48,061 nt of DNA, taken from the NCBI RefSeq assembly GCF_013812825.1, contig NZ_JACCSU010000093.1:1-48061 (forward strand). The letters run 5' to 3'. Under the pieces are notes generated by a model that worked only from the letters and a program-made list of their open reading frames with translations, was not told where the DNA came from and did no database searches. Position 1 is the stretch's first letter. Every line of letters starts with the position of its first letter. The DNA is from Sphingomonas sp. Lineage in GTDB: Bacteria > Pseudomonadota > Alphaproteobacteria > Sphingomonadales > Sphingomonadaceae. This document shows positions 1,286 through 19,694 of this stretch, in pieces. The position numbers were made by a program, and so were the translations under genes.

Positions 1286-1361
1286 GGGGCTGTAGCTCAG
1301 ATGGGAGAGCGCTGCAATCGCACTGCAGAGGTCAGGGGTTCGATTCCCCTCAGCTCCACCA
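1286..1361 (+). tRNA. tRNA-Ala (anticodon CGC)
   Basis: A complete 76-base cloverleaf can be drawn. The acceptor stem GGGGCTG pairs with CAGCTCC, the D-arm is GCTC/GAGC, and the anticodon stem CTGCA/TGCAG encloses ATCGCAC, giving CGC. The T-arm AGGGG/CCCCT encloses TTCGATT, and a genomic CCA ends at 1361. The last 14 bases are the left copy of the island attachment core. Confidence 0.95.
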
Positions 1362-1365
1362 GCCC
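1348..1365 (+). repeat. attL core (tRNA-Ala 3' end)
   Basis: CCTCAGCTCCACCAGCCC, which spans the tRNA 3' end and four bases beyond, recurs exactly in direct orientation at 19677-19694. Integrases of the P4/DUF4102 type normally recombine within a tRNA 3' end, so this is read as the left attachment site of the 18.3-kb island. Confidence 0.8.
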
Positions 1366-1499: not shown

Positions 1500-2729
1500 A
1501 TGCCGCTAACGGTCAAGGAAGTGCGGAACGCCAAGCCCGGCCGTCAGTCTGACGGCAAGGGTCTCTATCTGCTGGTGAAACCCAGCGGCTCAATGTCTTG
1601 GGTGCTGCGGGTCCAATACCAAGGGGAGCGCCGCGACTTTGGGCTAGGCTCGGTCGCCTTCGAGGCGATCAACGCGCCAATCCCGATACACAAACGGAAG
1701 CTGCTCACGCTGGCGGAGGCTCGCGAAAAAGCTGCCATTGGTCGGGCTCTCGCCAAGGCTGGACTCAACCCGTCTGCCGAATGGCGGCAGGGGGTAGAAG
1801 AGGAGCCGCATACCTTTCGAGCCGTTGCCGAGGAATGTCACCGGCAAGCGTTGAAGGGCTGGCGAAACGGCAAGCATCGGGACGAATGGTTAGGTTCGCT
1901 GGAACGCTATGCATTTCCGGTTATCGGCTGCTTCACACCGGACGAAGTGGACGCGGCGGCAATCCAGCGGGTCCTCTTGCCTATTTGGCTAACCAAGGGC
2001 GAAACGGCGCGACGCGTTAAGCAGCGGATTGGCGTCGTTCTCGACTATGCTCATGCGAAGGGCTGGCGATCGGCAGAAGCGCCGATGCGGGCGGTCAACC
2101 AGCTGATGCGCGGGATCAGGCAGCCGAAGCGCGGCAATTTCGCCGCCACGCCCTACGCTGATGTTCCTGCCTTCATGGCGAAGCTGCGGGAGGGTGACGG
2201 GTCCGTGGGGCGGCTGGCTCTGCAATTCCTTATCCTGACGGCTGCTCGCTCGGGTGAAGTGCGCGGCGCAACCTGGCGGGAGTTCGACCTAGACAAAGCC
2301 GAGTGGAGCATCCCGGCCGAACGGATGAAGGCCGACCGTCCTCATATTGTGCCGCTGGTTCCCGCCGCCGTGGAGATCCTTCAACAGGTGCACGGGCTGT
2401 TCGCGCCGCAACCCGGCGACTTTGTGTTTCCCGGCCTCAAGGGCGTGATGAGCGATGCCACTATGGCAAAGGTGCTGCGCGTCTGTGGAGGCGGAGCTTA
2501 CACCGTTCACGGCTTCCGATCATCTTTCCGCGATTGGGTGGCTGATATGGGGTTCGCTGACTCGTGGGCCGAAGCGGCGTTGGCCCATAACAACCCGAAC
2601 AAGACGGAAGCGGCTTACCGCCGCACTACATTCTTCGAGCAGCGCCGCGATAAACTGATGCCGGCGTGGGGCGCTTTTGCTTTGGGGGATACCTCCAATG
2701 TTGTCTCGCTCGCTGCTGCGAGGGGGTAA
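1500..2729 (+). CDS. P4-type tyrosine integrase
   Basis: A 409-residue site-specific recombinase, the expected length for the P4/DUF4102 integrase family, which inserts elements at tRNA 3' ends. Residues 1-95 form the DUF4102 N-terminal arm-binding domain (SDGKGLYLLVKPSG), about 100-200 the SAM-like core-binding domain, and 215-390 the catalytic domain. The tyrosine recombinase residues are visible: R250 in TAARSGEVR, H337 and R340 in VHGFRSSFRDW, H363 in LAHNNPNKTE, and the probable nucleophile Y373 in AAYRRT. The gene faces away from the tRNA and begins 138 bases after it. It looks intact and presumably drives integration and, with the AlpA-like protein downstream, excision. Confidence 0.93.
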   Translation: MPLTVKEVRNAKPGRQSDGKGLYLLVKPSGSMSWVLRVQYQGERRDFGLGSVAFEAINAPIPIHKRKLLTLAEAREKAAIGRALAKAGLNPSAEWRQGVEEEPHTFRAVAEECHRQALKGWRNGKHRDEWLGSLERYAFPVIGCFTPDEVDAAAIQRVLLPIWLTKGETARRVKQRIGVVLDYAHAKGWRSAEAPMRAVNQLMRGIRQPKRGNFAATPYADVPAFMAKLREGDGSVGRLALQFLILTAARSGEVRGATWREFDLDKAEWSIPAERMKADRPHIVPLVPAAVEILQQVHGLFAPQPGDFVFPGLKGVMSDATMAKVLRVCGGGAYTVHGFRSSFRDWVADMGFADSWAEAALAHNNPNKTEAAYRRTTFFEQRRDKLMPAWGAFALGDTSNVVSLAAARG

Positions 2730-3291: not shown

Positions 3292-3492
3292 TTGGAACCG
3301 ATCGGCCTAAGTATTCCCGACACCGGCAAGGCGCTTGGTGGCTCGGATAAGCCGCTTTCCCGAAACACGATCTATCGGATGATCGGGCGGGGCGAGCTTG
3401 AAGCATTCAAAATGGGTTCGCGAACCCTTGTGTCTGTTCCCAGCATCAAGCGAGCGGCGGAAAATGCGCGCCGGCTTACGGTAGCTGCGTGA
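3292..3492 (+). CDS. AlpA/excisionase-like helix-turn-helix protein
   Basis: A 66-residue protein starting with TTG eight bases after a strong AGGAGG. The segment SRNTIYRMIGRGELEAFKMGSRTLV (about 23-47) is the winged-helix excisionase pattern: a recognition helix with an Arg/Asn-Thr-Ile-Tyr motif, then the wing Ala/Gly-x-Lys-x-Gly-x-Arg. Proteins of this family direct excision (Xis) or activate element genes (AlpA). It lies between the integrase and the RepA-like gene, the usual place for such a factor in small integrative elements. The ORF that follows begins one base after its stop. Confidence 0.75.
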   Translation: MEPIGLSIPDTGKALGGSDKPLSRNTIYRMIGRGELEAFKMGSRTLVSVPSIKRAAENARRLTVAA

Positions 3493-3493
3493 T

Positions 3494-3778
3494 ATGAACG
3501 CGCTTCCCGATCCGATCGAGACTTTCGCGCCTTGGGCTGATGATGCGGAAAAGAATCTTCGCAGGAGGCTTGCGCAAACACAGGTAACTGGCAGCGCGAG
3601 GGCAGCGCGCTCCAAGTCAGACGCTGCATGCTGCCTATGGTGTCATGCCGCACAAGTGGCTTCGGCTTGGACATTCGCGCGGGCAAGCAAGGGCGATCTT
3701 GTGGATGTTCTGCGCGCCTGTTCGCAGATGTTCTGCGCGGCCAATGTCTTCGAGCGGATCGAAGGCGGCTCCCTGTGA
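3494..3778 (+). CDS. Hypothetical protein coupled to RepA-like gene
   Basis: A 94-residue protein that starts one base after the AlpA-like stop and whose TGA overlaps the GTG start of the next gene (GTGA). This supports it as a real, translationally coupled gene, and it rules out the longer upstream extension of the ATPase frame. It has four Cys (CC, C, C in the middle and end) and a C-terminal helical half (DLVDVLRACSQMF). I recognise no family. Confidence 0.5.
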   Translation: MNALPDPIETFAPWADDAEKNLRRRLAQTQVTGSARAARSKSDAACCLWCHAAQVASAWTFARASKGDLVDVLRACSQMFCAANVFERIEGGSL

Positions 3779-4893
3779 AGACCTGGGACACGATCGAGCC
3801 GGAGGACAGGTTCTGTTCCAACCGGAACGGCATCACCGCGGCGGCCCTGATGCTCAAGACATTCGACCCCGTGAGCTACATCGTTCCGGGCTATGTCTGC
3901 GAAGGGCTGACGGTACTCGCCGGATCGCCCAAGCTCGGCAAATCATGGATGACGCTGGGCTGGGCGCTGGCCGTAGCAACAGGCCGGCCGGCGTTTGAGT
4001 CGATCCCGGTACTGTCTGGCGACGTGCTGTATCTTGCGCTTGAGGACAACCAGCGCCGCCTCAAGAAGCGGCTGCTGCACATGGGCCTCAAGGACGCTCC
4101 CGAGCGGCTGACCTTCCACACACACTGGCCGGACTTGGACAACGGCTGCTTAGGCGCGGTCGATCAATGGCTGAATGATCATCCCGACGCCCGCCTTATC
4201 GTGGTGGACGTGCTCGCCAAGGTGCGCGGCATGATCGGCAAGGAGTCAGCCTATGAAGCTGACTACCGCGTGCTGTCTGGCCTTCAGGGGCTCGCTGGTC
4301 GCTATGGCGTGGCGATCGTCGTCGTTCACCACACTCGCAAGATGGAGGCGGACGATCCATTCGATAGCGTCAGTGGAACGCGGGGACTAACGGGCGCCGC
4401 CGATACCGTCCTGGTGCTCAAACGGGACGTTGGGACAGGCGGAACGGGACGAGTGACAATTTACGGACGTGGCCGCGACATCGAGGAAATTGAGACAGCT
4501 CTGGAGTTCAATCGAGACAATGGGATTTGGCTCGTCGTCGGCGCTGCGCATGATATTGCCAAGACAAGCGAGCGCCAAGCGATCCTCGACGTTGTTCGCG
4601 CCAGCTCTAACCCACTGACTGCGCGGGAGATTTCCGACCTTCTCGGCAAGAACTATGACGCGGTGCGCCGGTGCCTCACCCGCATGGCGCAGAGTGACGA
4701 AGTCGAGAAAACGGGGAGGGGTCAATATACCTGTCCCAACGGTCCCATTGTCCCAACTGACGCCAGCGCACCTGCGCAATGTGACATTGAGACACATGGG
4801 ACAGGGGATATAGATCAGTGGAGCCGGCAGATTCTTGCACCCGGTGAAACGGGCGGCGAGCCTGTTCTCGGCTTCGAAGGGCTTGCTCGATGA
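3775..4893 (+). CDS. RepA-like AAA family ATPase
   Basis: A 372-residue protein resembling the RepA hexameric helicase/ATPase family of broad-host-range plasmids and integrative elements. The Walker A motif GSPKLGKS is at 50-57, Walker B LIVVDVLAKV at 131-140, and the RecA-fold strand plus sensor IVVVHHTRK at 161-169, followed by SGTRGLTGAADTVLVL. Residues about 238-290 form a winged helix (ILDVVRASSNPLTAREISDLLG). The start chosen is the GTG overlapping the preceding stop, because the longer frame only reads through the neighbour. It may unwind the excised element for replication; no primase partner is visible. Confidence 0.8.
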   Translation: MKTWDTIEPEDRFCSNRNGITAAALMLKTFDPVSYIVPGYVCEGLTVLAGSPKLGKSWMTLGWALAVATGRPAFESIPVLSGDVLYLALEDNQRRLKKRLLHMGLKDAPERLTFHTHWPDLDNGCLGAVDQWLNDHPDARLIVVDVLAKVRGMIGKESAYEADYRVLSGLQGLAGRYGVAIVVVHHTRKMEADDPFDSVSGTRGLTGAADTVLVLKRDVGTGGTGRVTIYGRGRDIEEIETALEFNRDNGIWLVVGAAHDIAKTSERQAILDVVRASSNPLTAREISDLLGKNYDAVRRCLTRMAQSDEVEKTGRGQYTCPNGPIVPTDASAPAQCDIETHGTGDIDQWSRQILAPGETGGEPVLGFEGLAR

Positions 4894-5321
4894 GCGAGCG
4901 CCGTAAATACGGGGCCAATACGAGAGAAACCCGATTCCAACCGGGCAATCCTGGGAAACCTCGCGGCGCCCGCCACAAGGTCACTCGCGCCGTGGAAGCT
5001 CTGCTCGAGGGCGAGCACGAGGCGCTTACTCGAAAGGCCATTGAGAAGGCGTTGGAGGGCGACGGCGCAGCGCTTCGGTTGTGCCTCGATCGCCTGGCTC
5101 CGGCCCGCAAGGATGCGCCAATCTCGGTGAACCTCCCTCCAGTTAAGTCTGCCGCCGATGCCATAGGCGCGTCTGCGGCGCTTCTGGATGCTGTTGCTGC
5201 TGGTGAAGTCACTCCCGACGAAGCCGCACGCGTTATGGTTCTGCTGACGGCTCATAAGGCCATCGTTGAAACAGGGGATCTGGAAAGCCGGATCGCCGCA
5301 CTGGAAGGGGCGAAAAAATGA
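4890..5321 (+). CDS. DUF5681-type protein
   Basis: A 143-residue protein whose ATG overlaps the ATPase stop (ATGA). The N-terminus TRFQPGNPGKPRGARHK is the hallmark of DUF5681, a short basic motif with the pattern FxxGxxGNPxGRP found upstream of phage terminase-like genes. The rest is helical and acidic, with a linker (PISVNLPPVKS) near residue 90 and an amphipathic C-terminus (DLESRIAALEGAKK) resembling the short helices of the next four proteins. A role in DNA recognition is possible, but no terminase large subunit is present in the window. Confidence 0.7.
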   Translation: MSERRKYGANTRETRFQPGNPGKPRGARHKVTRAVEALLEGEHEALTRKAIEKALEGDGAALRLCLDRLAPARKDAPISVNLPPVKSAADAIGASAALLDAVAAGEVTPDEAARVMVLLTAHKAIVETGDLESRIAALEGAKK

Positions 5322-5581
5322 AAGCTCTGGAAAGACGGCTGGTCGCCCTCGAAGGGCCGAACGGAATGTTAGAATACAAGCGGTGGACTGATGAGCGGCT
5401 GAACACGGAGATAGCCAATGTCACAGCGGAGCTGCGCCGTGCCGGTTCCTTGCTCGATCCTAAGCGGAATGCGCTCTTGGAGTGCGACGATCCCGATCGC
5501 CTCTCCGAGATGATTCGCGATCTGGAAGCCGAGTTCAGCCGAGAGGAATCGCACGGTGACACAGATGCGCAAGAGGGTTGA
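5318..5581 (+). CDS. Small coiled-coil protein, first of tandem set
   Basis: An 87-residue acidic protein whose ATG overlaps the preceding stop (ATGA). It begins MKALERRLVALEGP, the same short amphipathic heptad that opens the next three proteins, and then continues as a long predicted helix (about 20-80). It differs from the next three in having no beta-strand pair after the heptad. Function unknown. Confidence 0.6.
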   Translation: MKALERRLVALEGPNGMLEYKRWTDERLNTEIANVTAELRRAGSLLDPKRNALLECDDPDRLSEMIRDLEAEFSREESHGDTDAQEG

Positions 5582-5717
5582 AAAGCTTGAAGCGCGAATG
5601 CCCGAGCAAGCGCGCCGGGGAGTGTGGCGCGACGCCGAGCAAACCGACGCCGAGGCGCTGGCCGTCGCTCGCTGTGGTGCCGCCGATAATGTTCTCATCG
5701 TGTCGTGGAGGGAATGA
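5556..5717 (+). CDS. Small coiled-coil protein, second of tandem set
   Basis: A 53-residue protein from GTG at 5556, overlapping the end of the previous gene by 26 bases and sharing ATGA with the next gene. It starts MTQMRKRVEKLEARMP, then a Trp/Arg-rich stretch, then DAEALAVARCG and a hydrophobic strand NVLIVSW. The pattern (heptad, spacer, EAxA helix, Gly, hydrophobic strand) recurs in the next two proteins. It could begin instead at the ATG three codons on. Function unknown. Confidence 0.5.
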   Translation: MTQMRKRVEKLEARMPEQARRGVWRDAEQTDAEALAVARCGAADNVLIVSWRE

Positions 5718-5932
5718 TGCAGCTTAGAAGGCGTGTTGAAGGCCTGGAAACGCGGCTCATTCCGCCCGCTCGGGTCGAGGTTCACATTGTTGGGGTGATG
5801 TCAGGGGAAACCGAGGCCGAAGCCTTGGCGCGCTACGGCCGGCCGATAGAGGAAAGCGATCGGCTCAATCTCATCCTACTGGTCGGGGTCGCGCCGGGTA
5901 GCGTGCCGGGGAGCGTCCATGAAGCGGCTTGA
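5714..5932 (+). CDS. Small coiled-coil protein, third of tandem set
   Basis: A 72-residue protein whose first ATG overlaps the preceding TGA; GGAGG lies 5 bases upstream. It opens MMQLRRRVEGLETRL, then a strand (RVEVHIVGVMSG), the helix EAEALARYGRP and a closing strand NLILLVGVAPG. This is a fuller version of the fold seen in the previous protein. It overlaps the next gene by 14 bases. Function unknown. Confidence 0.6.
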   Translation: MMQLRRRVEGLETRLIPPARVEVHIVGVMSGETEAEALARYGRPIEESDRLNLILLVGVAPGSVPGSVHEAA

Positions 5933-6122
5933 TGCGAGGGTCGCGGACCTGGAGGCGAAGCACATTCCTTTGCAGCGGGTCGTTCGCGTGCTGCGCCACG
6001 AAAGGAAAAGCCAGGATGAAGCGATAACGGCAGCTGGGTTCGATCCAAGCGATGATGAGATTTTCTTCTTCACCCGGTCGGTCGTGTCGCCGCAGTCAGG
6101 CCCGGACCGGGACTCGAGCTAG
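5919..6122 (+). CDS. Small coiled-coil protein, fourth of tandem set
   Basis: A 67-residue protein that starts inside the end of the previous gene. MKRLDARVADLEAKH repeats the N-terminal heptad, followed by a strand (RVVRVLRHE), the helix QDEAITAAGFD and a final strand EIFFFTRSVV, so it is probably a diverged paralogue of the two genes before it. Its stop at 6120-6122 abuts a dispersed palindrome, which may have replaced whatever followed. Confidence 0.6.
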   Translation: MKRLDARVADLEAKHIPLQRVVRVLRHERKSQDEAITAAGFDPSDDEIFFFTRSVVSPQSGPDRDSS

Positions 6123-6150
6123 TGTCCGCTTTCGACCCATTGCGGACATT
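6123..6150. repeat. TGTCCGC palindrome, copy 1
   Basis: TGTCCGCTTT, a CGACCC centre and TTGCGGACATT form an imperfect palindrome of 28 bases, followed by AGAGCG. It begins directly at the stop of the preceding gene. This is the reference copy of the REP-like family in this window. Confidence 0.85.
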
Positions 6151-6174: not shown

Positions 6175-6612
6175 ATGATCGACTTCTTCCGCACCTGGCT
6201 CCCGCAGATAATCGGCTACGCCGAAATGCTGCAGGACGACACGCTGGAAAAGGCTTGGGCGGAGGGCGACCGCTCCCGCACTTCCGTTTATTACAGCGGT
6301 GAACTCTACGAGCAGGTCTTTGGCGGTCTGGACGCTGACAACATGATGGAGGAAGCGCGCCTGAAGCTTGGACAGCACCCCACCATAGTCGCCGCGCTCG
6401 ATAGCTTCCTACGCTCGCTGAAGCGGCTTGATGAGTGGATTGAGGCGCATGTGGACACCGACACTTGGGGCAAGGGGCAGCGGATACCGTCAGGTGTTCG
6501 CAGTATCTTCCAATCGCAGGACTGGCGTGAGGCTCAATCATCTGCGGCTGCATTGATGTCGGCTGCTGGAGAAGCGGGCTTCAGCAGCACAGATTTCGAC
6601 CGGCGACGGTGA
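6175..6612 (+). CDS. Hypothetical 145-residue protein between palindromes
   Basis: The open frame extends upstream through the palindrome at 6123, but protein-like sequence begins at the ATG at 6175 (MIDFFRTWLPQII). The product is soluble, acidic in its middle part and mostly helical (GQHPTIVAALDSFLRSLKRLDEWIEAHVDTDTWG), without signal peptide or membrane segment. No family is recognised. No clear ribosome binding site precedes the ATG. It is closely bracketed by two palindromes, and its TGA (6610-6612) is one base before the second. Confidence 0.55.
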   Translation: MIDFFRTWLPQIIGYAEMLQDDTLEKAWAEGDRSRTSVYYSGELYEQVFGGLDADNMMEEARLKLGQHPTIVAALDSFLRSLKRLDEWIEAHVDTDTWGKGQRIPSGVRSIFQSQDWREAQSSAAALMSAAGEAGFSSTDFDRRR

Positions 6613-6613
6613 G

Positions 6614-6641
6614 TGTCCGCTTTCCACCCAAAGCGGACATT
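6614..6641. repeat. TGTCCGC palindrome, copy 2
   Basis: TGTCCGCTTT, CCACCC and AAAGCGGACATT, one base after a stop codon. The centre has CCACCC where copy 1 has CGACCC, the two common variants in this window. Confidence 0.85.
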
Positions 6642-11800: not shown

Positions 11801-12006
11801 AGAGCGGCGGCAGGATCGTCGGCTACGCCTCGTTCCCGCCCCGTGTGCCTCACAGCGCGTTCCTCCAAGGGTGCCCACTCTGGTACTCAGGGCCCCAACC
11901 AACCCTTGTGCAAATTCTCATATTTTTTTGCCCGCTGCCGCGCCGGCCGCTTGACTCCGTCGCAGGTCGAACGCAGCCTTTGATTCTCGACAACATAGTT
12001 GCGAGG

Positions 12007-12027
12007 TGAAAGCGGGGGGCGCTTTCA
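12007..12027. promoter_or_regulatory. Perfect inverted repeat before the adhesin gene
   Basis: TGAAAGCG (12007-12014) and CGCTTTCA (12020-12027) flank GGGGG. It is 54 bases before the adhesin start, in its leader or promoter. It could be an operator or an mRNA hairpin; no known site is matched. Confidence 0.35.
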
Positions 12028-12080
12028 TTGATCATGGTTGCCGCTCCTTGGCCGAGACCTACGTGCGAAGGAGAATCCCC

Positions 12081-13556
12081 ATGTCCAAATCCCTCAAACT
12101 GAGCCGTTACCTGCTTGCGACGACGGCGGCTTTCAGCGTGCTTGCACTGACGTCGACCCTGGGCAGTCAACCGGCGCACGCCTACGATTGCCTGCTTGAC
12201 ACCAACAATGACGGCAATGCCGATACCGACATCGACACCGACGGCGGCGCCGATTCCGCTGGTAGCAGCTCCCGCCTCGCCTGCGGTCCTGGCGCCGTAG
12301 CTTCAGGGGCGGACGCCACCGCCATCGGAGCCATCGCAACCGCCAGCGGCACATGGTCGACCGCGATCGGCTGGGGGACTGACGCGACCGGCACACGCGC
12401 GGTCGCGATTGGCGATTCCGCCCAGGCCTTGGCTGGCTCAGCCACCGCTGTGGGGGGGGCCGCTGGTGCAAGTCAGTTCGGTGCGACCGCTTTCGGCAAC
12501 CAGGCCCACGCTACGGGTGTCGAAGCCATCGCCATTGGCAATGTCAGTCGCGGGACCGCCGCCGGCGCCGTCGCGATCGGCGGCGACAGCTCGGACCCTG
12601 ACGGTTTCGGCGCCCAAGCCACCGCCGTTAACGCGATAGCGCTTGGCGCCGATTCGTCGGCCACCACTACCAGTGCTGTGGCCCTCGGCGCGGGGGCGCA
12701 GTCTCAAGGCACGCTGACGATCGCAATCGGAGCGGGCGCCAGGTCCAAGGGCACCGACAGCATCGCCATCGGCGCGAACGCGGTGTCCAACTTTTTCAAG
12801 AGCATCGCCATCGGCAATAACACGGTCGCCGCCGCCCAGGGCGTGGTGATCGGCGATTCGTCGAGCACCACCGGGGTGCGCTCGACGGTGATCGGCGAGA
12901 GCTCGAGCGCCAATGGCGACGACGCGCTGGTGTTCGGCTCCAACACCAACGTGACCGGCAATGGCGCCATGTCGGTTGGAGCGCGCTCGAACGCGAATGG
13001 CGCCGCGGCGACGGCGCTCGGCTTCTTCGCCTCGGCACAGTTCGCCGGCTCGACGGCGATCGGCACCAATGCCACCACCACGGCGGTCAACCAGGTCACC
13101 CTGGGCGGCTCGGGCTCCTCGGTGCGGGTCGGCGACATTGCCGCCTCGACCGCGGCGCAAAGCGGGCCGGTGCAGGTGGTCACGGTCGATGCCAACGGCA
13201 CGCTCGGCCGGCAGGCGGTGTCGATGAGCTCGATGGACTTCAAGGGCGCCAGCGGGGCGGAGATGATCGCGCTCAACAGCCGCATGGGCCTGATCGACGG
13301 CGAGCTGGACAACATGCGCGGCGAGTTCCGCCAGGGCATCGCGGCGTCCGTGACGATGACCCCGGTCCAGATCCCGTCCGAGCCGGGCCGGTTCAGCTAC
13401 GCGCTCAACGGCTCCGCCTATCGGGGTGAATATGCGACCGGCGGGTCGATGATGTACCGGCTCAACACCAAGAGCCCGATGGCGGTCGGGATGAGCTTCT
13501 CCCACGGAGGCGGCAAGAGCCGGGCCATGCGCATCGGCGTCGCCGGCGAGTTCTAA
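12081..13556 (+). CDS. YadA-like trimeric autotransporter adhesin
   Basis: A 491-residue protein beginning at the ATG at 12081 with AAGGAG 8 bases upstream. A signal peptide with an unusually long, basic n-region ends near residue 34 (SQPAHA). Residues about 60-350 contain more than a dozen YadA-head repeats of the form AIAIGxxAxAxG (for example TAIGWGTDATG, SIAIGANAVS), which fold into a left-handed beta-roll. A short neck/stalk with LGGSGSSVRVG and a coiled-coil (MIALNSRMGLIDGELDNMRGE) precedes a C-terminal four-strand membrane anchor (FSYALNGSAYRGEYATGG to a final Phe). Three chains form one outer-membrane pore. Adhesion is inferred from the family; the ligand is unknown. Confidence 0.88.
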   Translation: MSKSLKLSRYLLATTAAFSVLALTSTLGSQPAHAYDCLLDTNNDGNADTDIDTDGGADSAGSSSRLACGPGAVASGADATAIGAIATASGTWSTAIGWGTDATGTRAVAIGDSAQALAGSATAVGGAAGASQFGATAFGNQAHATGVEAIAIGNVSRGTAAGAVAIGGDSSDPDGFGAQATAVNAIALGADSSATTTSAVALGAGAQSQGTLTIAIGAGARSKGTDSIAIGANAVSNFFKSIAIGNNTVAAAQGVVIGDSSSTTGVRSTVIGESSSANGDDALVFGSNTNVTGNGAMSVGARSNANGAAATALGFFASAQFAGSTAIGTNATTTAVNQVTLGGSGSSVRVGDIAASTAAQSGPVQVVTVDANGTLGRQAVSMSSMDFKGASGAEMIALNSRMGLIDGELDNMRGEFRQGIAASVTMTPVQIPSEPGRFSYALNGSAYRGEYATGGSMMYRLNTKSPMAVGMSFSHGGGKSRAMRIGVAGEF

Positions 13557-17060: not shown

Positions 17061-17345
17061 GTGACGCACTTACCAAGACAGGGTTTGGACGAAATAATCC
17101 AAGAGGCCAAAACTTCCGGTACATTGCGTTCGCGCTCATCTCCTCAAGGCTCAAAGCCTCAACCCGGTAAGATCACTTCCGTAGATCTGACGCGTCCGCG
17201 GTTGGCACTCGAGTCTCTTGCAGAAGATCTCGCCGATGACCCCGTTGTCGTGAAGCGGCAAATGGCAAAGCTTCAAACCCTCGACATAATTGCTCAGGCG
17301 CACAGGAAGCTTGCCGCGGACGCTAAAGATGGGAACTACCGCTGA
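17061..17345 (+). CDS. Hypothetical protein upstream of serine recombinase
   Basis: A 94-residue soluble protein starting with GTG. The first half is Ser/Pro/Gly-rich and probably unstructured; the second half is helical (LALESLAEDLADDPVVVKRQ, LQTLDIIAQAHRKLAADA). It ends 55 bases before the recombinase start and inside that gene's upstream open frame. It may be an accessory factor for the recombinase, but this is only positional. Confidence 0.5.
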   Translation: MTHLPRQGLDEIIQEAKTSGTLRSRSSPQGSKPQPGKITSVDLTRPRLALESLAEDLADDPVVVKRQMAKLQTLDIIAQAHRKLAADAKDGNYR

Positions 17346-17400
17346 AGCTGAGTTCCGCTATCTGATCACTGTGGTCTTTGGCGGGCCAAGGGAGGCCGCC

Positions 17401-19161
17401 ATGCCGAGTGTCATTTTGCCCACATCCACATCCACCAAACGGTGCGCCATATATGCCCGCAAGAGCAGCGAGCACGGCCTTGAACAGGATTTCAATTCGC
17501 TTGAGGCTCAACACGAACTCTGTTCTGCTTACATCACCAGCCAAAAGCACCGCGGCTGGGCGGAGGTCGACAAAGTCTATATCGACGCGGCGCAGTCCGG
17601 CGGAAGCCTCGACCGACCTGCACTGCAGGCGCTCCTGGAAGACGTAGAAGCCGGGCAGGTCGACATCGTCGTCATATATAAGCTGGACCGCCTCAGCAGG
17701 AGCCTGTTGGACTTCGTCCGTCTCATGGCGGTCTTCGACCGCAACTCCGCGTCTTTCGTCTGCATCACCCAAAACTTCGACACCGGTGACAGCTTAGGTC
17801 GTTTGATCATGAACATACTCCTCACGTTCGCCCAGTTCGAGCGGGAGCTCACCGGCGACCGCATTCGAGACAAAAAACAGGCGATGGCTGCCAGAGGGTT
17901 CTGGACGGGAGGCCGTCCACCATTTGGCTACGACTATATCGACAAGCAGCTTCAGCCGAACACGATCGAGGCGGCCAGTGTTAAATTCATTTATCGTCGC
18001 TACCTTGCTTTACGATCAATCATGGCAGTCTGGCGCGAGTGCTCCGCGAGGGGAATCCGGAGCAAGCCATGGGTCTCTCATGATGGGGAAGTGAGGGGTG
18101 ACCAGCCGATTCACCGCGCTACGGTCCGCTCAATCCTCTGTAATCCGATATACAAGGGCGACATCAAAAATGTCGACAAGACGTATCCTGGACAACACCC
18201 GGCCCTGGTGACCAAGGCCAATTGGAAAAAGGCCGCGCAACTTAGGCTAGAGACGCACTCTAAAAGGAATCTTCAGGCTCCCGCCGATCTGCTGCCATCA
18301 GTCATATACGATTGCTTTGGCCGCCGTATGTCTATGGTCCGCAAGTATCGAGATGGCCGTTGCGAGCGGCATTACTACTCTGATGTAACTGCATGGGGTC
18401 GCAAGCATCAGGTTCCGAGAATGCGGGCCCGCGCCGCCGAGCTTGAGAAACTCGTACTGGCGGCGATCTCGGCAACGCTTTCAGATCGCAAAGAGGTTCG
18501 GGCGATGTTGCTCACCATCGGGCGGCGCAGCTCGCGTCTGGAAAGGATCGCTGCAGGCTGCGAAACCGCAAGCCGACGCGTGACTAATGGCGTTTTTGAT
18601 CAACAGATCGCAATTATGGCAGCTCTCGTCGTGCGCGTAGAACTTTCAACCGAACGGCTGAAGATTATCCTCCGCGCCTCGGAGCTCGAAAGATTTCTCG
18701 AATGGGATGGTTTCGATTTCTTCGCCGCCGAGAAACGGCCGAAGAGTGCTCGGGAAATAACCCATTTGATCGATGTCCCCGCGACAGGTGGCCGGCTTTC
18801 GAGACGCTTGCGATTGCCGATCGGACCAAGAGCAGCAAACAGCCCGGCGCGGCCCGATCCCAAGCTGCTCCTTCTTATGAAACAGGTTCGCCACGCGCAG
18901 CGATTAGTAGACACAGAGCGCCTCGAGTCCGTCGCTTCACTCGCAAGTCGGATGAGCAGGAACACCGGCCATTTCATGAAGTTGCTTAGATTGAACTATC
19001 TGGCACCGGACATTGTCACCGCAATCTTTGACGGTACGCAGCCGGCCAGTCTCACTCGGCGGACATTGCTCGATGCAAATCTCCCGACGGACTGGCCCAT
19101 GCAGCGGAAGCTGTTTGGGTTTCCGGAGCAGCCTCCGCTGCAAACGTCGGAGCGATATTGA
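17401..19161 (+). CDS. Large serine recombinase
   Basis: A 586-residue protein of the large serine recombinase class, which cuts both DNA strands through a 5'-phosphoserine link. The N-terminal resolvase domain (about 14-165) has Y18-A-R-K-S22 with S22 as the expected nucleophile, IYKLDRLSRSLLDF with the catalytic arginines, and the E-helix region FAQFERELTGDRI. The recombinase domain follows at about 170-285 (RGFWTGGRPPFGYDY, ATVRSILCNPIYKG). The following region keeps only one Cys (VIYDCFGRRMS), so the usual CxxC zinc ribbon is missing or replaced. I start at the ATG at 17401; upstream sequence is the neighbour's. It is flanked by direct copies of the GTGAG repeat. Confidence 0.88.
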   Translation: MPSVILPTSTSTKRCAIYARKSSEHGLEQDFNSLEAQHELCSAYITSQKHRGWAEVDKVYIDAAQSGGSLDRPALQALLEDVEAGQVDIVVIYKLDRLSRSLLDFVRLMAVFDRNSASFVCITQNFDTGDSLGRLIMNILLTFAQFERELTGDRIRDKKQAMAARGFWTGGRPPFGYDYIDKQLQPNTIEAASVKFIYRRYLALRSIMAVWRECSARGIRSKPWVSHDGEVRGDQPIHRATVRSILCNPIYKGDIKNVDKTYPGQHPALVTKANWKKAAQLRLETHSKRNLQAPADLLPSVIYDCFGRRMSMVRKYRDGRCERHYYSDVTAWGRKHQVPRMRARAAELEKLVLAAISATLSDRKEVRAMLLTIGRRSSRLERIAAGCETASRRVTNGVFDQQIAIMAALVVRVELSTERLKIILRASELERFLEWDGFDFFAAEKRPKSAREITHLIDVPATGGRLSRRLRLPIGPRAANSPARPDPKLLLLMKQVRHAQRLVDTERLESVASLASRMSRNTGHFMKLLRLNYLAPDIVTAIFDGTQPASLTRRTLLDANLPTDWPMQRKLFGFPEQPPLQTSERY

Positions 19162-19676: not shown

Positions 19677-19694
19677 CCTCAGCTCCACCAGCCC
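19677..19694 (+). repeat. attR core
   Basis: CCTCAGCTCCACCAGCCC, an exact direct copy of 1348-1365. Flanking bases differ on both sides, so it is not a second tRNA gene but a copied 3' end, as left by tRNA-targeted integration. It stands 15 bases past the msrB stop. Confidence 0.8.

Follow-up and report, generated by a model that had tools for sequence, protein, structure and literature searches.

Four short genes that follow a DUF5681 gene in a mobile element of Sphingomonas sp. encode small proteins opening with the same motif, R-h-x-x-h-E, and this motif recurs at the C-terminus of the DUF5681 protein itself, where it had escaped the first-pass annotation of this DNA. Related DUF5681 genes in other genomes are followed by comparable arrays, in which the tag of the DUF5681 protein (the base) is acidic and that of the microproteins is basic. 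Because the motif is present on both partners, the charges are opposed, the genes are linked and the remainder of the microprotein (the body) changes, the best reading is that the microproteins dock through a basic N-terminal helix on an acidic C-terminal helix of the DUF5681 protein, which would thereby act as a hub. This reading is held at about an even chance of being right. The window, i.e. the whole stretch of 48,061 nucleotides that was analysed, is contig C42 of a 2.45-Mb genome.

The array and its surroundings in the window

The four overlapping short frames reported after the DUF5681 gene (5318-6122) are all present, and their linkage by ATGA or short overlaps was borne out. Two of the four junctions are ATGA, among them that of P2 with P3, and two are longer overlaps, of 26 nt between P1 and P2 and 14 nt between P3 and P4; a strict translational coupling of the array genes would agree with these overlaps. 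P2 has an alternative start at an internal ATG (5565), which would give 50 aa; its orthologue in locus L064, found in the walk along downstream ORFs, likewise has a GTG start. The N-terminal heptad said to be common to all four proteins is indeed found in each, specifically as R-h-x-x-h-E. The common body ascribed to the last three (an EAxA helix, a glycine and a closing strand) holds for P3 and P4, which both belong to the largest body cluster described below; P2 is alignable with them, yet shorter and outside their cluster. The body of P1 differs from the P3/P4 type and is probably helical. Searches of Pfam, PHROGs and NCBIfam with P1-P4 gave no match over the curated cut-offs, only weak matches far below them or none.

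Table 1. Features of the window and of related loci; positions refer to the window unless another locus is named
Feature	Position	Strand	Remarks
tRNA-Ala(CGC), presumed attachment site	1286-1361	+	ARAGORN
18-bp repeat, presumed left attachment site	1348-1365	+	overlaps tRNA 3' end; exact copy at 19677-19694
Tyrosine integrase	1500-2729	+	Phage_int_M, Arm-DNA-bind_3, Phage_integrase
HTH_17/excisionase-like protein (AlpA position)	3292-3492	+	HTH_17 24.5 bits, cut-off 27; TIGR01764 23.5, cut-off 28.8
AAA_25 RepA/primase-helicase-like protein	3628-4893	+	AAA_25 E 4e-34; phrog_906 DNA polymerase/primase 7.7e-15
Base protein DUF5681 (P0005)	4890-5321	+	143 aa; PF18932 37.2 bits, above the cut-off of 27.5
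P1	5318-5581	+	87 aa; ATG start; -4 overlap with DUF5681; tag and probably helical body with WTDERL
P2	5556-5717	+	53 aa; GTG start; tag and short body
P3	5714-5932	+	72 aa; tag and strand-helix-strand-like body (judged from sequence)
P4	5919-6122	+	67 aa; tag and body type as in P3
18-bp repeat, presumed right attachment site	19677-19694	+	exact copy of 1348-1365
P2 orthologue	L064:8396-8554		dN/dS 0.19
P3 orthologue	L064:8557-8751		dN/dS 0.33
P4 orthologues	G066:C82, G066:C91		dN/dS 0.32 and 0.28
base2 loci	L128-L130, L132-L134, L137, L140, L147		about 88 aa and longer, C-terminal tag

None of 2000 dinucleotide-type shuffles produced four ATG-start ORFs (50 aa or longer) chained at such spacing; 14 produced a chain of three. 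Codon log-odds rank each of the four frames above its two forward alternatives. An antisense frame reaches a similar score, however, and does so for DUF5681 too, so that this measure leaves P1 unsettled. The evidence for P1 as a putative gene consists of its overlap, its tag and its forward-frame codon use.

Within the same genus, contig G066:C82 carries a DUF5681 gene followed by overlapping orthologues of P2, P3 and P4 in the same order, with P1 absent. In G066:C91 the DUF5681 gene and the P3 behind it are both frameshifted, and two P4-like genes come next. The dN/dS ratio (NG86) is 0.07 for the base between the window and G066:C82, and 0.03-0.33 over 19 microprotein pairs from several genera, including the P2-P4 pairs (0.19-0.33). 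As order is conserved and dN/dS is low, P2-P4 withstand the two tests set beforehand, namely homologues in the same order elsewhere and purifying selection on the frames. No orthologue of P1 was found. Two weak matches to P1 in other places were rejected as homologues, as they sit between other genes and, by eye, look like coiled coils of the FtsB type.

The order upstream of the array is tRNA-Ala, integrase, a 156-aa protein, the HTH protein, the AAA_25 protein and DUF5681. The 156-aa protein between integrase and HTH protein gave no family match over cut-off, and the AAA_25 frame may have its true start further in. The 18-bp repeats suggest an island of about 18.3 kb. Just inside the right repeat lies a long ORF (17290-19161) that resembles a serine recombinase by eye, and given this ORF the island may be composite. 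Another ORF (12006-13556) encodes a repetitive AIG/A-G-rich protein that by eye is like trimeric autotransporter head repeats. Directly after the P4 stop begins a copy (6123-6149) of a palindromic repeat, TGTCCGCTTT-NNACCCANN-GCGGACAT, of which the genome has 23 copies and the window a second one at 6614-6640. Between these two copies lies a 145-aa ORF (6175-6612) without family match in Pfam, PHROGs or NCBIfam. Both G066 arrays seem to carry the palindrome at the same place, as judged from ORFs starting MSAFDP.

Arrays in other genomes

Window-type DUF5681 genes were found in 7 of 149 related genomes (the window's own included; G056 is distant) and at 56 further genome loci, a few of which duplicate places already counted in the related genomes; by title these are all alphaproteobacterial except one Thiobacillus MAG. 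The base also occurs in one phage record, in five plasmid records including Waddlia pWc, and at five viral-contig loci, all from the second scan and none from the first. On the chlamydial plasmid pWc of Waddlia chondrophila (L056), a primase gene is followed by the base and one tagged microprotein. The one microprotein queried against the phage collection had no match there, nor did the one queried against the plasmid collection.

The 63 loci that were walked (L051-L112 and the window) include 56 in which a window-type DUF5681 gene is followed by one to seven microproteins, 149 short ORFs in all. The walk favours motif-bearing starts, and the L101 microproteins were added by hand, so that motif counts on this set are partly by construction. 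Neighbouring genes overlap in 74 of 93 pairs, 35 of these by exactly 4 nt. An unbiased test is provided by ORFs chosen for coupling only, independently of the motif (40 aa or more, beginning at -4 or -1 relative to the preceding stop, 52 loci). Of the 85 ORFs so coupled behind the base, 72 have R[VILM]xx[LIM]E within their first 20 residues; of 297 ORFs with like coupling in other parts of these loci, 7 do. Several of these seven are themselves array members (L053, L058, L097) or sit directly before the base (L060, L086, L091); a tagged ORF also precedes the base in L123 and L126. The 11 loci outside this test (L059, L064, L100, L101, L105, L106, L107, L108, L109, L111, L112) are broken, partial or already counted in the related genomes.

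Seven of the 63 loci lack a downstream microprotein (L091, L105, L107, L108, L109, L111, L112). The contig of L105 ends inside the base, and in L107, L111 and L112 the base frame is broken or partial. L108 and L109 have a DUF5681-like base without C-terminal tag and no tagged ORF within 900 bp downstream; the next ORF in L109, of 227 aa, looks by eye like the ORF behind base2 (see below) in L128/L129. In L091, as in L005 (outside the 63), the base is tagged and the only tagged ORF lies upstream. In L007, also outside the 63, no tagged ORF lies near the tagged base, and in L100 a tagged ORF follows a frame whose end is without tag. Searched in 296 genomes of the order, a P3/P4-type profile was found in six, in all six directly behind a tagged base; three of these bases are DUF5681 (including, by construction, that of the window's own genome, G000) and three are of a different kind. 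When 270 genomes sampled across the class were searched, the microprotein profile matched only G000, plus a partial match in G815 outside the tag.

Trimmed of 14 residues, the 149 microproteins group by single linkage (BLAST E 1e-3) into 72 body clusters, of which 55 have one member. The arrays are thus better described as a shared tag joined to many bodies than as repeats of a single protein; remote kinship between clusters may exist. The largest cluster is mixed, with 41 members from 27 loci, and 28 of these, including P3 and P4, have GQxxxEAxAAxEAxxGP between two hydrophobic stretches. The WTDERL element of P1 is common to other helical-looking bodies, e.g. in L087, and a more general S/T-D-x-x-L theme picks out 19 of the 149 microproteins, some of them (such as P4) probably by chance. 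A search of solved structures with the base and microprotein profiles returned nothing convincing (best E 0.018 and 0.068, respectively). The local duplication of a microprotein that had been proposed fits P3 and P4 and the two P4-like copies in G066:C91, but not the 149 microproteins as a whole with their many body clusters under one common tag; duplication is thus an account of only part of the array pattern.

The different base mentioned above, base2, is an 88-aa protein other than DUF5681 that carries the tag at its C-terminus and precedes P3/P4-type microproteins in three genomes. The C-terminal 58 aa of the DUF5681 base match the base2 profile (hhalign 95.4%, E 1.7e-8), with only the tag module in common, and the tag pairing therefore survives a change of the other half of the base. 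At all nine base2 loci (Table 1) the next ORF, of 79-168 aa at -4 to +3 nt, has a tag or degenerate tag, the strict motif being present in five of the nine partners. The gene order of L129 and L130 runs from an integrase (recognised by eye) through one or two small genes, a primase and a protein of about 200 aa to base2 and the tagged protein; the L129 primase and an L130 HTH were confirmed. One base2 protein queried against the phage collection had no match, base2 was not found in the viral contigs, and one genome of the class-wide sample of 270 has it. In L127 (2860-3366), a DUF5681 protein continues past a degenerate tag into an LSDAELIRIIR body like that of the first microprotein of L054, a single case of a possible fusion of a DUF5681 base with a microprotein-like body.

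The elements around these arrays are varied. Of the 63 loci, 26 (window included) have an upstream integrase on the same strand that is related to that of the window or of L112, a count that covers these two integrase types on contigs several of which are short. Repeat-type attachment sites in 23 related loci exceed all their own shuffles only in L083 (19 bp) and L093 (15 bp), and the array is followed by a tRNA at a distance of 101 bp in L067, 146 bp in L079 and 222 bp in L106. The genes ahead of window-type bases frequently encode primases or helicases; among the 56 scanned of 104 upstream proteins are DUF3987 (8), AAA_25 (8) and phrog_239 (11) proteins. Some loci are prophage-like, with internal virion or phrog_5880 proteins upstream (L066, L055, L065) or with tail tube and tape measure downstream (L051).

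Opposite charge on the two tags

The DUF5681 C-terminus carries the RhxxhE motif in 51 of 52 loci. The net charge at tag positions -7 to -1, +2 and +3 averages -2.66 in the bases (n=53, which are mutually related and therefore not 53 independent cases) and +1.38 in the microproteins (n=149), without overlap. The base tag is lower in charge than the microprotein tag in 52 of 52 loci and of opposite sign in 50 of them. Base2 pairs are opposite in all eight that were typed; L132, whose partner has no clear motif, was left out. In the bases, acidic residues stand at -7 in 51 of 53, at -4 in 52 and at -2 in 40, and in the microproteins basic residues stand at -1 in 66 of 149 and at +3 in 86. Two positions run against the pattern, +2 in microproteins (acidic in 48 of 149, basic in 17) and -1 in bases (basic in 12 of 53, acidic in 8). 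When only positions -4 to -1, +2 and +3 are considered, the ranges overlap at -1 and 0 (bases -3 to 0, microproteins -1 to +4), and the mean charge per body cluster is positive in 59 of the 72 clusters, zero in 10 and negative in 3. An excerpt of PMC5940361 places the R of RhxxhE at heptad position g and the E at e; in this register, a microprotein K/R at -2 (e) could be the partner of the base E at -7 (g), and base-with-base pairing would set E against E.

The charge opposition bears on the alternative that the microproteins act alone, with tags that make RhxxhE homotrimers and a DUF5681 tail whose likeness is a by-product of common tag ancestry. This would agree with the published role of RhxxhE as a trimerisation motif (excerpt of PMC5940361, citing Kammerer 2005), with the P3/P4-type proteins behind base2 and with the tagged base of L007 that has no tagged neighbours. 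However, homotrimers of this kind are unlikely in view of the opposite charges in 50 of 52 loci and of a microprotein profile that, in the order sample, occurs only behind tagged bases (6/6 genomes). Recruitment of the basic helix to another target, such as a membrane, a nucleic acid or a host or phage protein, with the base as a parallel user, appears rather improbable. Compared with 240 control genes, the microproteins do have more basic N-termini (+1.83 as against +0.54 on average over 14 residues), but the conserved acidic residue of the core (72/85) is unexpected for a simple membrane- or DNA-binding helix, and the large terminase (TerL) ORFs beside DUF5681 genes are without the tag.

The common tag could also be a nucleotide signal, i.e. 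a reinitiation or recombination site, instead of a protein function. The many overlaps of exactly 4 nt (35/93) point this way, as does a slightly greater likeness of tags within arrays than between them (amino-acid identity 0.536 versus 0.493, a difference matched in 0 of 1000 label shuffles), although this excess, the trace that homogenisation of tags within arrays would leave, is small and ignores phylogeny. For a possible origin of the P1 tag as a DNA copy of the 3' end of DUF5681, the best ungapped match between the two covers 32 of 51 positions. In the tag codons, however, synonymous change lies far above non-synonymous change (pooled pS 0.44, pN 0.10), which rules out a nucleotide-only signal. 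The tag is under selection as a protein, and the motif is also present at the C-terminus of the base, so that a nucleotide role is very improbable. Chance frames or decaying duplicates in a GC-rich island, to which the orphan P1, the antisense codon scores and the frameshifts in one G066 array could be credited, are hardly credible and already contradicted for P2-P4, as the shuffles, the control ORFs and the dN/dS values rule out chance frames.

The joint oligomers suggested in the first-pass annotation are better supported as putative docking between base and microprotein. The core is identical to that of the RhxxhE trimerisation motif of short coiled coils, and the tag spans about two heptads here, a length that counts against docking, being short for a stable free coiled coil.

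The DUF5681 hub and known systems

The base starts with GNPGKPRG, which is AT-hook-like, and ends with the acidic tag DLESRIAALEG; P0005 had no HTH family match in Pfam, PHROGs or NCBIfam. DUF5681 (PF18932) corresponds to the N-terminal half of the base, which matches DUF5681 proteins adjacent to TerL (hhalign 94.1%), the tag module lying outside the part in common. Of the 296 genomes of the order, 78 have a generic DUF5681 match, which exceeds the Pfam cut-off in 73. Large terminases make up 10 of the 12 scanned ORFs directly downstream of these genes (12 of 29 were scanned, the other 17 being mostly short), and among 34 neighbouring ORFs ParB domains occur in 14 and DNA-methylase domains in 19. 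The idea that the microprotein tag mimics a TerL N-terminus was ruled out, as RhxxhE occurs in the first 150 residues of none of the 10 TerL ORFs adjoining generic DUF5681. In the window, the gene after DUF5681 is P1 and not terL; since the base gene is not beside TerL and has no HTH match, the hub is not assigned as a small terminase (TerS), but it may be read as small-terminase-like by position and partial homology. A second DUF5681 gene in the window's genome (G000:C41:69340-69564, L046) has a large terminase as the next long ORF, and this region is a possible helper prophage. Tandem DUF5681 genes about 0.5 kb apart occur in G002, G220, G240, G295, G297, G315 and others.

According to the docking model, DUF5681 would be a DNA-associated hub whose tail is a short amphipathic helix, acidic and built around RhxxhE, while each microprotein would combine a short basic RhxxhE helix with one of many small bodies. 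Coupled translation would yield the microproteins next to each other, and the basic helix would join the acidic hub tail in a mixed coiled coil, so that the element could present varying sets of small effector domains on a single hub. An origin of the hub in the phage small-terminase position, by descent or by borrowing, is probable. The likeliest use would be to steer or block a helper or competing phage, at packaging or at other steps, because the hub resembles a gene in TerS position and the elements look like satellites or prophages; those elements that are prophages, with genes for tail or internal virion proteins close by, do not require a satellite role. The genes, their conservation, the selection on three of the frames, the tag on both partners, the opposed charges and the neighbourhoods are observed, whereas physical docking, the oligomeric state, the ancestry and DNA binding of the hub and the use are what we infer. 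A wider proposal is tentative and a little short of even: a DNA-binding hub derived from a small terminase and provided with an acidic docking tail, served by an operon whose basic-tagged microproteins can be exchanged, with free turnover of their bodies. The activities loaded in this modular display would be packaging control and anti-helper or anti-host functions, by gain and loss of genes of 50-100 residues.

In phage-inducible systems of the PICI type, the gene order is integrase, xis, pri-rep, interference genes and sometimes terS, as given in an excerpt of PMC6092414. The window element is alike in having an integrase at one end (beside tRNA-Ala) and a primase/helicase-like replication module, behind which a further gene occupies the terS position, with accessory genes after it; its candidate excisionase-like HTH gene has matches below the curated cut-offs (Table 1). 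PICIs are about 15 kb in size without structural genes, compared to about 18.3 kb for the element, of whose genes a minority were scanned; furthermore, its terS-position gene is a DUF5681 gene with an added tag module, and the element is not known to be induced or packaged by a helper. The excerpted PICI account (PMC6092414) contains no arrays of tagged microproteins. TerS C-termini bind the partner TerL, according to excerpts of PMC9611059 and PMC6854486; generic DUF5681 stands directly before TerL, whereas the window-type gene precedes a microprotein instead. The docking domains of PKS, like the arrays, place short matching termini on consecutive gene products, a likeness in the way of working only. 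The arrays differ by their tiny bodies, several microproteins per base, the RhxxhE core and their location in mobile elements, and PKS docking was physically shown while array docking is proposed from sequence. P1-P4 showed no homology to PKS docking families, with no Pfam or NCBIfam match over cut-off. The literature searched, which covered few subscription-journal papers, gave one paper on DUF5681, no description of a tagged-array system and no publication on phage satellites in Sphingomonadales.

If the docking model is true, the microproteins would form a widespread and overlooked class that is defined by a docking tag and not by a fold, with a partner named from sequence alone. DUF5681 would be assigned a role, and satellite-like elements of alphaproteobacteria would be described. 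In addition, the tags would be a naturally occurring pair of very short coiled coils, one acidic and one basic, that carries dozens of payloads and would make a useful tag set.
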